DNA from: a bacterium
GTDB lineage: Bacteria > Actinomycetota > Acidimicrobiia > Spongiisociales > JAENVV01
Length of the DNA: 47,576 bases
Direction of reading: 5' to 3'
Assembly (NCBI GenBank): GCA_024639975.1
Contig: JAHEFX010000006.1
Coordinates: forward strand, 1 to 47,576
Positions 14,750 to 24,582 of the stretch are shown piece by piece (position 1 is the first letter of the stretch; each line of letters opens with the position of its first letter). The position numbers and the translations under genes are program-made. A model generated the notes under the pieces. The model was not told where the DNA came from and did no database searches. It saw nothing but the letters and a program-made list of their open reading frames with translations.

Positions 14750-17700
14750 CTACTCCTCGTCGCCTCCGACCACGGTGAAGGCGACCAGTTCTCCGCCATC
14801 CTCCAGGCTCATGATCCTCACGCCGGTCGCTTCCCGCTGCTGGCGGGAGATGCTCTTCACTGCGATCCGGATTCCGATACCGGATGCGTTCATGACGAAG
14901 AGTTCATCGTCCAGCGTGATCGCCCTCGCCCCGACCAGGTGGCCGCGGACCCGGGTGAGCTTGATCGCCTTGACGCCGATCCCGCCACGGCCCTGCACGC
15001 GGAAGTGCTCGAGCAGCGTTCGCTTGCCGTAGCCACCGGAGGTGATCAATACGATCTCGTTGCTGTCGGCGCTCGATCCGGCCGCGACGACCTCGTCACC
15101 ATCGCGCAGCTTCATCCCGCGCACGCCCTGGGTGTCCCGACCCATCGGGCGAAGGTCGGTCTCGGCGAATCGGATGCCCTGCCCGGCCTTGGAGAAGATG
15201 AGCAGGTCGTTGTCGCCGTTGGTGGGACGGACCGCCACCAGCTCGTCGCCATCCTTCAGGCTGATCGCGATGACCGACTGGCGGGGCGTGTCGTAGTCCC
15301 CGAACGGGGTCTTCTTCGCCTGCCCCCGCTTCGTCACCATCACGATGTACTTCGCCTCGGAGAAGTCCTTCGTGTCGATCACGGCCTCGATGCGCTCGTC
15401 GGGCTCCAACGGCAGGACACCCTGGGCGATGACGCCCTTGCCCGTCCGGGACTGGACCGGGATCTGGTGGGCCTTGATCCGGTGGACGCGCCCGGTGTTC
15501 GTGAAGAACAGGAGGTTCTGGTGGGCCGACGTGTGGAGGACATGCTCCACGTAGTCGTCCTCGCGTAGGTCGGCGGCCTTGACCCCGCGCCCGCCCCGTC
15601 CCTGGGATCGGTAGACGTTTGCCTTCACCGATTTGATGAACCCATTGGCACTGATGGTGATGAACAGCTCGTCGTCGGCGATCAGGTCCTCGAGGGTGAA
15701 GTCACCGTCGTCGGGGATGATCTGGCTGCGCCGGTCACCGGCGTGCTTCGCGCGGATCTCGGCGAGCTCGTCGGAGATGATCGCCCGCCGCCGGGCCGGG
15801 TCGGCGAGGATCGCCTCCAGCTCGGCGATCGTCCCCATCAGCTCCTGGTACTCGGCCCGGAGCTCGCCGGTCTCCAGCGCCGTGAGGCGCCGGAGTGGCA
15901 TGTTGAGGATGTGCTGGGACTGGATCTCCGACAGCCCGAATCGATCCATCAGCGCCAGTCGAGCTCCCTCGACGTTCTGCGAGCCGCGGATGATCGCGAC
16001 GACCTCGTCGATGTTGTCGAGGGCGATGAGCAGGCCCTCGACGATGTGGGCCCGATCCTTGGCCTTCTGGAGGCGGAAACGGGTGCGCCGCTCGATCACC
16101 TCCATCTGGTGGTCGATGTAATACCCGATGATCTCGCCGACGTTGAGCGTTCTGGGCACGCCGTCGACCAGGGCAACGGCGTTCACGCCGAAGGTGTCCT
16201 GGAGCTGGGTCTGCTTGTGGAGTTGGTTGAGGACCACCTGGGGGATGGCGTCCTTCTTCAGCTCGATGACCAGCCGCGTCCCGTGCCGGTCGGATGACTC
16301 GTTCCGCAGGTCGGAGATGCCGAGGAGCTTCTTCTCGTTCACCAACTGGGCGATCTTTTCGAGCACCCGGTCCTGGCTGACCATGTACGGGAGCGCCCGG
16401 ACGATGATCGCCGTCTTGCCCCGGGGGAGCTCCTCCATCTCGGTGATGGCCCGCATCTTCACCGAGCCGCGACCGGTCAGGAGGGCGTCCTGGATGCCCT
16501 TCTTGCCGACCAGGTGGCAGCCGGTCGGGAAGTCCGGACCCTGGATGTAGTCGAGGTACGCCTCCGGCGGGGCGTCAGGGTTGTCGAGCCCGAATATGAC
16601 GGCATCGATGACCTCCCCGAGGTTGTGGGGCGCCATGTTCGTGGCCATCCCGACGGCGATGCCGGTGGACCCGTTGGCCAACAGGTTGGGAAAACGGGCC
16701 GGCAGCACCGACGGCTGGAGGTGCTCGCCGTCGTAGTTCGGCTCGAAATCGACCGTGTCCTCGTTGATCCCCTCGGTGAGGAACTTGGCGATGGCGGACA
16801 GACGCGACTCGGTGTTGTGGTTGACGAATCCGCCAGCGAGGAAGGCATGGTCGTCACTGTCGACCCGAACCGAGTACACCTCGCCCAGCCCTGTCTCCTC
16901 GACCGACTCGACGGTGGCATAGAAGTAGCCCGACTCGACGATCGGCAACACGGCGGCCATGAGCTCGGGGTCGTTGACCCGATCCATGATCTCCTTGCCG
17001 GCAGCCTCCCATCGCGAGACCCGGTCGAGGTTGTGCTTGCTCAACCATTCCCGGTTGCCCCGCGGGGCGTGAGCACGGATGAACTCCCCGATGAACGGGA
17101 TGGCATCCCCCGAGAGCGACCGAACGCGACCCGGACGATCGGTGAGGATCGCCTCGAGCTTGGTCCCCTTCGACCCGAAGAAGCCGACTCGAGAGGCAAA
17201 CAGCCGAGCATCCCGACGGTTCGAGATGATGACCTTCCATTCACCGGTCGCTTGCTCGAACACTCGCCCGATCACACCGAACTCGGCGAGGAGGAGTTGC
17301 ACGTCCTCGGCCAGAGCACGGCTACGGGTCGAGTAGGCGATCTGGATCGCCCCACGCGAAAGGCCGGAACACGAGCCGTCGCCCTCGTACAGAGAGGCCA
17401 GGAACCGGCGCTTGGCGTCAGCCGGGGCCTCCCAGACGAAGCCGGGGATCCGCTTCTGCGCGCTTCGGTCACCGAGGAGCTCGGCCAGCAAGCTCTCCTC
17501 GAACGCGTCCATGTTCTGGACGTCGAGCTCCCAGATCTCCTTGCCGGAGGGAAGCGTTCGTGACGAGACGTATCGCGGGCCGCCGACGACGACGTCGTAG
17601 GCATCCAACGTGGCTGCGAAGTACTCGGCGTCGGTGTTGCTGAACCCGGCTCGTCCTGGGGACGCGAACCCCTCTGCGATCCACGCTCCCGCGAGATGGG

Positions 17701-18457
17701 CAGCAGCGACCAGGAGGGGGTGTGCCTCCGAGTCACCATCGATGACCGTCCGCGAGATCGCGACCCGATCACCTGACTGCAATTCATCGAGGCGCTTCCA
17801 CAGCAACGCTGGCACGCCGGTCGAGTCCGTGAGTACCAGGACGGGATGGTTCTCGGTACCCGTCAACCCGAAGCCTTCCTTGGTCCTCAGGCGCAGGGTC
17901 TCCTGAATGCCCGAATGGAAGAACTTCGTCGCCACGACCGGGTCCCCGAGTCGATTGGCGACTTTGAGGTCGATGTCGGTGTTCGAGTCCGGCGTCGCTC
18001 CGGGAACCAGCGAGTCGATCCGCCTGGTGGAACCGTCGGCCATCCGGACCAGCGTTTCGCCGGCGACGCAGTAGCGCATCGCTGCCGGGGGGTCGTCGAT
18101 CGTGCCGAAGTTGCCCTGCGGGTCGATCAGCGGGACCCGGGTGTTGAAATCCTGGCCGAGACGCACCAACGCGTCGTAGATGGCGTCGTTGGAGTGCGGG
18201 TGGTACTTGCCCATCACGTTGCCGACGACGTTCGCCGACTTGCGATGACGCGAGGTGTAGTGCATCCCCTCCTCGAACATCGAGAAGACGATGCGGCGCT
18301 GGACCGGCTTCAGGCCGTCCCGGACGTCGGGGAGGGCCCGGGAGACGATGACCGACATGGCGTAGTCGATGAACGCCGTCTGGATCTCGTCATTGATGTC
18401 GATCCCGGGGACGCGCTGGACGTCCTCCGGTTCGATGGTGGTGGTGTCGTCGCTCAT
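14750..18457 (-). CDS. gyrA: DNA gyrase subunit A precursor containing an intein
   Basis: IDYAMSVIVSRALPDVRDGLKPVQRRIVFSM..., GNFGTIDDPPAAMRY|intein|TESRLSAIAKFL, C-terminal beta-propeller GQGIRFAETDLRPMGRDTQGVRGM. Confidence 0.98.
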   Translation of the reverse strand: MSDDTTTIEPEDVQRVPGIDINDEIQTAFIDYAMSVIVSRALPDVRDGLKPVQRRIVFSMFEEGMHYTSRHRKSANVVGNVMGKYHPHSNDAIYDALVRLGQDFNTRVPLIDPQGNFGTIDDPPAAMRYCVAGETLVRMADGSTRRIDSLVPGATPDSNTDIDLKVANRLGDPVVATKFFHSGIQETLRLRTKEGFGLTGTENHPVLVLTDSTGVPALLWKRLDELQSGDRVAISRTVIDGDSEAHPLLVAAAHLAGAWIAEGFASPGRAGFSNTDAEYFAATLDAYDVVVGGPRYVSSRTLPSGKEIWELDVQNMDAFEESLLAELLGDRSAQKRIPGFVWEAPADAKRRFLASLYEGDGSCSGLSRGAIQIAYSTRSRALAEDVQLLLAEFGVIGRVFEQATGEWKVIISNRRDARLFASRVGFFGSKGTKLEAILTDRPGRVRSLSGDAIPFIGEFIRAHAPRGNREWLSKHNLDRVSRWEAAGKEIMDRVNDPELMAAVLPIVESGYFYATVESVEETGLGEVYSVRVDSDDHAFLAGGFVNHNTESRLSAIAKFLTEGINEDTVDFEPNYDGEHLQPSVLPARFPNLLANGSTGIAVGMATNMAPHNLGEVIDAVIFGLDNPDAPPEAYLDYIQGPDFPTGCHLVGKKGIQDALLTGRGSVKMRAITEMEELPRGKTAIIVRALPYMVSQDRVLEKIAQLVNEKKLLGISDLRNESSDRHGTRLVIELKKDAIPQVVLNQLHKQTQLQDTFGVNAVALVDGVPRTLNVGEIIGYYIDHQMEVIERRTRFRLQKAKDRAHIVEGLLIALDNIDEVVAIIRGSQNVEGARLALMDRFGLSEIQSQHILNMPLRRLTALETGELRAEYQELMGTIAELEAILADPARRRAIISDELAEIRAKHAGDRRSQIIPDDGDFTLEDLIADDELFITISANGFIKSVKANVYRSQGRGGRGVKAADLREDDYVEHVLHTSAHQNLLFFTNTGRVHRIKAHQIPVQSRTGKGVIAQGVLPLEPDERIEAVIDTKDFSEAKYIVMVTKRGQAKKTPFGDYDTPRQSVIAISLKDGDELVAVRPTNGDNDLLIFSKAGQGIRFAETDLRPMGRDTQGVRGMKLRDGDEVVAAGSSADSNEIVLITSGGYGKRTLLEHFRVQGRGGIGVKAIKLTRVRGHLVGARAITLDDELFVMNASGIGIRIAVKSISRQQREATGVRIMSLEDGGELVAFTVVGGDEE
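16814..18070 (-). other. GyrA intein (419 aa) with LAGLIDADG homing endonuclease domain
   Basis: Starts CVAGETLVRMADGSTRRIDSLVPG, TGTENHPVL (block B), LAGAWIAEGFA and LASLYEGDGSC (DOD blocks C and E), YSVRVDSDDHAFLAGGFVNHN, +1 Thr. Confidence 0.96.
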
Positions 18458-21971: not shown

Positions 21972-23057
21972 TCAGATCCGAATGGGCATCAGCAGGTAGA
22001 GGAAGTCCTCGTCGCCGCGCCCCCGGATGACACTCGGCTTCTGGCCGTCGCGGACATGGATCTCGACCTCGTCGGCACCGATCGCGCCGATGCCATCACC
22101 GAGGTAGCGGGGGTTGAAGGCGATCGTCACCTCGGCGTCCTCGCCCTCGTAGCCACCATCGATGTGCTCGACCTCGCCACCGACGTCCTGGCGGGTCACG
22201 GTCACCTCGACCCCACCCTCGGCCAGCTTCAGGCGGACCGGGATGTGGTCCTCGGCAACCAGGCTCGCCCGGCCCAACGCTTCGAGCAACACCGACTTCT
22301 CGAGGGTCACCCTGTTCGGGTAGGTGTCCGGGAGGAGCCGGCGGTAGTCGGGGAAGGCCCCTTCGATCAACCGCACGGTCACCGTGCCCTTGGGCGAGCC
22401 GAAGGCCGCTTCCCGGTCACCGATCGCCACGGTGACCGAATCGGACCCGATCGCCGCCGGCACCTCCCGGAGGGCTCGGGCCGGAATCAGGCCTGAGCCG
22501 TCGAGGGTGACGCCGGCGAGGGTCCGCACCGCCAGCCGGTAGGAGTCCGTGGCGACGAGACGGACACCCGATTCATCGTGCTCGACCTGCACCCCGGTGA
22601 GGACCGGGCGTGCCGAATCGACCGAGGCAGCCGTCACGACCTGCTTCACCGCTTCGGCGAAGACGTGTCCATCGATCGCAACCGCCCCGGTGAGATCGGG
22701 CTCAGGGACCTCCGGGAACTCGTCGACCGGCATCTCCCGAATGGCGAATCGCGGTCCGCGCCCCTCGATGACCAGCTCCTGGCCATCCGAGCGCAGCGTC
22801 ACCTGGCCGGCGGGCATCTTGCGGATGGCCTCGGTCACGAGCTTGGCGGGTACCACGAAGGAACCCTCCTCGAGTACCTCGACCTCGACGGCGGTGCGCA
22901 CGGTGATGTCCAGGTCCGTACCGGTGATCGAGAGGGAGGACCCCGCCACCCTGCAGAGCACGCCGGAGAGGATGGGCAGGGCGGCCCTGGTCCCGACGGC
23001 GCGGTTGGCTCGCCCGAAGGCGTCGGCTAGATCGTCACGGTCGGCGCGGATGTGCAC
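21972..23057 (-). CDS. dnaN: DNA polymerase III subunit beta
   Basis: MHIRADRDDLADAFGRANRAVGTRAALPILSGVLCRV...YLLMPIRI. Confidence 0.97.
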   Translation of the reverse strand: MHIRADRDDLADAFGRANRAVGTRAALPILSGVLCRVAGSSLSITGTDLDITVRTAVEVEVLEEGSFVVPAKLVTEAIRKMPAGQVTLRSDGQELVIEGRGPRFAIREMPVDEFPEVPEPDLTGAVAIDGHVFAEAVKQVVTAASVDSARPVLTGVQVEHDESGVRLVATDSYRLAVRTLAGVTLDGSGLIPARALREVPAAIGSDSVTVAIGDREAAFGSPKGTVTVRLIEGAFPDYRRLLPDTYPNRVTLEKSVLLEALGRASLVAEDHIPVRLKLAEGGVEVTVTRQDVGGEVEHIDGGYEGEDAEVTIAFNPRYLGDGIGAIGADEVEIHVRDGQKPSVIRGRGDEDFLYLLMPIRI

Positions 23058-23244
23058 GATTCGGTGGTCCTTCTTCTTCGTTACTGATCAGTAGGAGAAC
23101 GGTAGTAGGCAGTAGTAGGGGCTGTGGATTGTCGAAACCGGGCGTTTCTCGTTGGGGGGAGCGGGTCTTGGGGTGTGGGCTCTTTGTGGAAGGTCTGTGG
23201 GCCGTCCGACCTCCTTTGTGGAAGCCGCGAGAGCCTGTGGAGAG
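23058..23244. other. oriC: Candidate replication origin (oriC), dnaA-dnaN intergenic region
   Basis: Six same-orientation TGTGG half-boxes (23123, 23174, 23185, 23196, 23217, 23236), TAG-trinucleotide tract 23091-23119, 12-bp palindrome 23082-23093. Confidence 0.8.
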
Positions 23245-24582
23245 TCAGGGAGTTGTCCGCAGCCGTTGTGAAAGATCGTTGACCTTGTCGAACACGGTTC
23301 GGTCACTTGCCAACAGCAGTTTGATCTTGTCGATCGAGTGCAGGACGGTCGAGTGGTCCCGGTTGAAGCGGGTCCCGATCTGCACCAGGGAGTCGTCGGT
23401 GAGCTCCCGACAGAGGTACATGGCGATCTGGCGGGCGGTGACGAGCGGCTGCTTGCGGCTCTTCGACGTGAGGTCATCGGGGTGGAACCCGAACGACTCG
23501 GCCGTGACGGCGATGATCGCCGGCCCGTCGACCACGGGGTCGTCCTCGGAGGTGATGTCGGTCAGGAGCGCCTTGGCACGCTCCAGGGTCACCGGGTGAC
23601 CGTTCAGGCGGCTGTCGGCGGTGACCCGGGTGAGAGCGCCCTCGAGCTCGCGGATGTTGTTGAGGACGTGCTTGGCGATGAACTCGAGCACATCCCGGGG
23701 GATCGGCACGGGCGACGCTGCGGCGTTCTTCTGGAGGATGGCGATGCGGGTCTCGACGTCGGGTGGTTGGATGTCGGTGAGCAGACCCCACTCGAAGCGG
23801 CTCCGTAGGCGATCCTCCAAGGATGCCAACTCACGGGGGTGGCGGTCGGAGCTGATGACCATCTGCTTGCCCGACTCGTACAGGGCGTTGAACGTGTGGA
23901 AGAACTCCTCCAGCACCGATTCCTTGCCCTCGAAGAACTGCACATCGTCGAGGAGCAGTACGTCGATCGATCGGTACTTGGCCTTGAAGGCATCGGCCCT
24001 CCGGTCGCGGAGGGTCTCGATGAACTCGTTGAGGAAGCGCTCCGAGGTCACGTACCGGACGACTCGACCCGGATCGAGCAGGTGCGTCAGGTGTCCGACG
24101 GCGTGGAGCAGGTGGGTCTTGCCGAGGCCGGCACCGCCGTGGATGAACAACGGGTTGTAGAGCGCACCGGGCTGCTCGGCCACTGCCTGGGCCGCGGCGT
24201 GGGCGAACCGGTTGGAGGATCCGACGACGAAGTCCTCGAAGGTGTACCGGTGCAGGAGGGTCGGCGGACCGGGTTGGTGGGTCTGGGCCGGCGGGGTCGG
24301 ATCGGTGACGGGTGAAGCCGGCGGGAGGTCGAGCTGTGGCTCCGTCACGACCTCGAAGCTCAGTTCGACGGGGCCATAGACCTGCTCGGCGGCTTGCTCG
24401 AGCAGTGTCAGGTAGCGCTCCTTGATCCATCGGGTGTGCAGGTCCGAGGTCGTGTGGATGGTGAGGGTGCCGGGCCCGTCGGTGGCGGTGAGGGGGTCGA
24501 ACCACCGGTCCCAGGTACCGTCGGCGACGGATTGCCGAACGACACGTCGGAATCCTTCCCAGTTGCTCACCATCGTTTGCAC
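23245..24582 (-). CDS. dnaA: Chromosomal replication initiator protein DnaA
   Basis: LLHRYTFEDFVVGSSNRFAHAAAQAVAEQPGALYNPLFIHGGAGLGKTHLLHAVGH...QIGTRFNRDHSTVLHSIDKI. Confidence 0.98.
   Translation of the reverse strand: MQTMVSNWEGFRRVVRQSVADGTWDRWFDPLTATDGPGTLTIHTTSDLHTRWIKERYLTLLEQAAEQVYGPVELSFEVVTEPQLDLPPASPVTDPTPPAQTHQPGPPTLLHRYTFEDFVVGSSNRFAHAAAQAVAEQPGALYNPLFIHGGAGLGKTHLLHAVGHLTHLLDPGRVVRYVTSERFLNEFIETLRDRRADAFKAKYRSIDVLLLDDVQFFEGKESVLEEFFHTFNALYESGKQMVISSDRHPRELASLEDRLRSRFEWGLLTDIQPPDVETRIAILQKNAAASPVPIPRDVLEFIAKHVLNNIRELEGALTRVTADSRLNGHPVTLERAKALLTDITSEDDPVVDGPAIIAVTAESFGFHPDDLTSKSRKQPLVTARQIAMYLCRELTDDSLVQIGTRFNRDHSTVLHSIDKIKLLLASDRTVFDKVNDLSQRLRTTP

Follow-up and report, generated by a model that had tools for sequence, protein, structure and literature searches.

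The window, a 47,576-bp stretch from the 179-contig draft of an Acidimicrobiia-like genome, contains the initiator gene dnaA and the sliding-clamp gene dnaN, which are separated by a gap of 187 bp between the dnaA end at 23245 and the dnaN start at 23057 (Table 1). The nearest named match of its DnaA comes from an Acidimicrobiia metagenome assembly (58% identity). Around the gap, the genes are ordered dnaA-dnaN-recF leftward, with rpmH-side genes rightward, an arrangement that fits an origin at the dnaA-dnaN gap. A gene for a DciA-family helicase operator (PF05258; 20547..21290, minus strand) lies between recF and gyrB and overlaps recF. The gyrA ORF (14750..18457, minus strand; 1235 aa) carries an intein-like insert with a LAGLIDADG domain, which matches the Pfam profile LAGLIDADG_3 and, slightly under the cut-off, Intein_splicing.

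Table 1 Features of the dnaA-dnaN region, with positions in the window.
Feature	Position	Strand	Details
dnaN, sliding clamp	21972..23057	minus	TIGR00663, 270 bits; trio array within its leader
50-bp stretch of lowest stability in the window	23070..23119		nearest-neighbour energies, -63.6 kcal/mol; predicted first opening region
Shifted triplets CTA CTA CCG	23100..23108	minus	sequence, comparison with relatives
Extra base (C) disrupting the triplet register	23109..23109	minus	common to closest relative G002
In-register trios 1-3, CTA CTA CTG	23110..23118	minus	trio strand 3'-GAT GAT GAC-5'
GC spacer GCCC, 4 nt	23119..23122	minus	4 nt in 46/54 relatives
Trio-proximal DnaA box CAATCCACA	23123..23131	minus	2 mismatches
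Upstream box of the tandem pair, GTTTCGACA	23130..23138	minus	degenerate, 3 mismatches to TTATCCACA
Degenerate box-like sites	23185..23244	minus	CTCTCCACA 23244-23236, GCTTCCACA 23225-23217, CCTTCCACA 23193-23185; weak matches only
dnaA, initiator	23245..24582	minus	TIGR00362, 490 bits; 3' end adjoins the origin gap
Box cluster upstream of dnaA	24610..24641	plus and minus	GTATCCACA, CTGTCCACA plus; TTTTCCACA minus; without trios

An earlier note on this DNA had quoted a 50-nt string from the gap as a DnaA-trio-like element. The string is found exactly on the minus strand, from 23131 down to 23082, and the order of box, GC cluster and CTA triplets is seen on the dnaA-to-dnaN strand, in the orientation published for the basal unwinding system (BUS). 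This strand reads CAATCCACA-GCCC-CTA CTA CTG-C-CTA CTA CCG, and the opposite-strand triplets, 3'-GAT GAT GAC-5', are oriented as in Bacillus subtilis. The single DnaA box described in the note is present, but it belongs to a co-oriented tandem pair with a 2-base overlap (23138-23123), the upstream member of which is degenerate. In relatives, the upstream position is occupied by TTGTCCACA, TTATCCACA and similar sequences, and CAATCCACA is the most frequent trio-proximal box form in the order. The run of CTA repeats likewise exists, but not as one continuous array: three in-register triplets are followed by a 1-nt slip and two more triplets.

The array of G002, CTACTACTC-G-CTACTAGG, has one extra base after the third triplet, as in the window, and the array runs without a break in the four g2 genomes of the family (for example, CTA TTA CTA CTA CTA CCG). 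Because the slip is shared with G002, whose DnaN is nearest to that of the window (74% identity versus 64-65% for g2), it looks inherited rather than an assembly error. Given the slip, the first three trios are probably the functional ones. Three trios are the minimum in published work, in which the first three are termed essential; by analogy, the window element should therefore still be functional despite the slip.

The published rule tolerates up to 2 mismatches in the box (4 in its partner) and asks for three or more NAN triplets on the correct strand within 16 nt of the box. In the window, CAATCCACA has 2 mismatches and its partner GTTTCGACA has 3, and exactly three in-register triplets follow the 4-nt spacer on the correct strand. 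The 1-nt slip after trio 3 breaks up what would be a long single-register array; the published definition does not demand such an array, and three trios suffice. When scanned across the whole window in a loose form (box with at most 2 mismatches plus three NAN within 16 nt), the rule gave 10 matches against a shuffle mean of 6.2, a difference that is not significant, so only the strict form counts as evidence; the loose motif, being about equally frequent in shuffles, was dropped as stand-alone evidence. The strict pattern TCCACA-N(2-5)-CTACTA has one match in the 47.6-kb window (both strands) and none in 60 dinucleotide-preserving shuffles of the window, and it was reached by 0.03% of shuffles of the 187-bp gap alone. 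Since the permissive rule is uninformative at window scale, conservation and register were taken as the real tests.

Fifty-nine relatives were considered and 54 dnaA-dnaN gaps, including that of the window, were extracted. A gap was scored as conserved if a box was followed by CTACTAC, each with no more than one mismatch. Alignment of these gaps, which the earlier note had proposed as a check, revealed that the box-GC-trio order is kept in 51 of the 54 genomes, and the element spans eight families of the order. The same combination was reached in 34 of 2700 shuffled gaps (1.3%) and was absent from the reverse strand of all 54 gaps. Three of the 54 genomes (L011, L127 and L132) were mis-anchored by the automatic rule; by eye, L011 reads CCCACA-ACGC-CTA CCA CTA CTA CTG, and L127 and L132 have CTA/TTA triplets nearby. 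As anchored, triplet 1 has C as its first base in all 54 gaps, T in the middle in 51 and A as its third base in 52, with triplets 3 and 4 more variable. The box-to-trio spacer is 4 nt in 46 of the 54 gaps, and the array starts 50-64 bases ahead of dnaN across the order (62 in the window). In most of the order the box 9-mers overlap by 2 bases, equal to a 7-bp offset; Bacillus-type loci have an offset of 8 bp and Streptomyces one of 9 bp, with box-to-trio spacing still at 4 nt. Family f3 (L021, L115, L120, L125 and L126) has a box-pair offset of 8 and a spacer of 5 nt, versus 7 and 4, so box-pair spacing is not constant within the order.

A 50-bp scan with nearest-neighbour energies located the lowest duplex stability among all 47,576 bases at 23070-23119, and the stretch that follows the array into the dnaN leader has 46% GC. 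In 46 of 54 loci, each spanning 1.9-4.4 kb, the array region overlaps with the 50-bp stretch of lowest stability, which in the relatives frequently begins at the first base of the array. The earlier statement that little AT-rich DNA lies beyond the element is thus wrong in relative terms, as no 50-bp stretch of the window is less stable than the array with its flank.

The GC skew of the window itself is noisy (47.6 kb of a draft genome), and sampling of G002 was uninformative. The origin site proposed earlier could be checked by skew in the near-complete relative G026, a 2.2-Mb single contig that carries the same element and has dnaA at 1.358 Mb. Sampled GC skew in G026 is negative in all samples from 232 kb to 1.33 Mb, reaches about zero at 1.36 Mb and stays positive from 1.45 Mb, switching sign at dnaA. 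Both the dnaA-dnaN context and this switch in the relative point to the dnaA-dnaN locus as the origin.

The window DnaA has the base-capture residues N185, I188, L191, K200 and E226 and the arginine finger R262, and among solved structures its closest relative is the B. subtilis chain 8btg. In B. subtilis, N187, I190, I193, R202 and E228 hold or flank trio bases (PMC10721633). N187, I190, E228 and R264 are identical in the window protein, and the trio-binding residues are retained with two substitutions, I193 to L and R202 to K. Of 52 DnaA proteins aligned from the order, 51 have Lys at the R202 position.

Register was also analyzed across the phylum, with the box pair as the sole anchor for 145 actinobacterial gaps. 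At least three of five triplets read N[TG]A in 115 of these gaps at the expected register, compared with 2-4 of 145 gaps at shifted registers and 2.6% in shuffles. Origins without CTACTA bear NGA triplets at the same place, as seen in Micromonospora (L046, L056), Cellulomonas (L060), Occultella (L100) and Luteimicrobium (L092). C-centred trios (NGA on the top strand) at the box-plus-4 register were observed in the dnaA-dnaN gaps of L046, L056, L060, L092, L099, L100 and L306-L337. They are conserved in the family of G261 (with Micromonospora, Winogradskya and Glycomyces types), one example being CGA TGA AGA CGA TGA on the top strand. A strict C-centred-array pattern gave 3 matches in 397 phylum genomes, one of which is the origin element of G261; the matches in L305 and L307, with no dnaA match at either locus, are probably due to chance. 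Family-level anchoring replaced this strict pattern for the counts. Among 26 box-pair-anchored origins of the G261 family, which come from related and hence not statistically independent genomes, 16 have at least three of five triplets reading NGA at the right register and 0 at other registers, and none has CTACTAC beside a box. In 20 distinct arrays from 26 tabulated origins of the family, the top-strand middle bases are G 67, T 27, C 6 and A 0. In the DnaA proteins of this family, the N187 equivalent is N in 31 of 31 and the R202 equivalent is Q in 31 of 31, versus K in Acidimicrobiia.

In B. subtilis, C can replace the central A of a trio, both A and C being functional (PMC10721633). Judged by sequence, the trio strand of the G261 family, with mostly C or A as the middle base, appears to match this substitution result. 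Natural trios not centred on A were merely raised as a possibility in the 2023 paper (PMC10721633), and no natural cases of C-centred trios were found in the papers available to our search; the published NAN search required a central A, so C-centred arrays would escape it. With the G261-family arrays as evidence, we consider it likely that the natural trio code is amino-base-centred (A or C) rather than A-centred. The slipped array of the window would then count as another type of deviation from the B. subtilis arrangement.

In most relatives, no DNA of the locus is weaker than the array and its flank, as would also be expected of an ordinary low-stability unwinding element, in which selection keeps duplex weakness and not triplet recognition. 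However, weak DNA requires neither a fixed box distance nor a register, whereas the observed register is exact and strand-specific, and the C-centred arrays of another family retain the register yet lose A/T content; we regard this explanation as unlikely. The region upstream of dnaA has DnaA boxes too, and the loose published pattern is frequent by chance, so the element could in principle be a chance match, or the origin could lie elsewhere, for example in that upstream region. Such a scenario is very improbable in view of the strict pattern appearing in 0 of 60 shuffles, the retention of the element in eight families of the order, and the upstream region, where a trio-like element was seen in only 1 of 51 relatives. 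Even harder to sustain is a role in dnaN regulation or as a dnaN leader, with a repeat that is incidental to replication. The array does lie 62 bases ahead of the dnaN start, but a search for a promoter-like or terminator-like site at the array found none, and the element is hundreds of bases from dnaN in other actinobacteria, indicating that its position is tied to the box pair and not to the gene.

Position, strand, spacing, order-wide conservation, the skew switch in G026 and the DnaA residues collectively support the DnaA-trio/BUS reading that the earlier note had put forward. Counting against it, neither box of the pair in the window matches the consensus perfectly, and the triplet register is lost after trio 3, so that the array only just reaches the published minimum. 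Overall, we are confident that the element is the BUS of this chromosome's origin. The analysis directly shows its sequence, its position, its conservation, its register and the weakness of the duplex.

By analogy with the published BUS mechanism (PMC8287927, PMC10721633), we infer that DnaA loading, base capture and trio-dependent opening take place at the window origin. DnaA would bind the co-oriented overlapping box pair at 23138-23123 as duplex. More ATP-DnaA subunits would then be loaded on the lower (trio) strand, from 3'-GAT-GAT-GAC-5', four bases past the box, and adjacent subunits would capture two bases per trio via the initiator-specific motif. This capture would separate the weak 50-bp stretch running into the dnaN leader, and helicase loading would follow at the opened stretch.

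The element resembles the B. subtilis BUS (boxes #6/#7 and DnaA-trios; PMC6669920, PMC8287927, PMC10721633) in its co-oriented box pair, its 4-nt spacer and its same-strand 3'-GAT-5' triplets between dnaA and dnaN beside weak DNA, as well as in the retained base-capture residues of DnaA. It differs in the box offset (7 bp versus 8), the degenerate upstream box, the array of 3 + 1 nt + 2, and the K and L at the R202 and I193 positions of DnaA, and it is known from sequence. DnaA-trios have previously been reported in a 70.6% GC actinobacterium. The oriC of Kocuria rhizophila (PMC12500396), a high-GC actinobacterium, has annotated DnaA-trios between dnaA and dnaN; it belongs to another class, and its origin spans ~600 bp with two box arrays. 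Box and trio elements are also shared with the BUS of Deinococcus radiodurans, Synechococcus elongatus and Helicobacter pylori (PMC8287927), members of distant phyla in which these elements were shown in vitro to be required for strand separation. Because actinobacterial trios were annotated earlier in Kocuria, the window element is no new kind; it is best described as a DnaA-trio/BUS member of predicted function, with a lineage-specific slip and a weak upstream box.

With register and chance controlled, the DnaA-trio layout emerges as the norm in a high-GC class that has received little study and phylum-wide, and even at ~66% GC no neighbouring DNA is weaker than the opening site. The C-centred arrays, if true, would be the natural counterpart of the B. 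subtilis substitution experiment, and would broaden the recognised trio motif and aid origin prediction in many actinobacteria.
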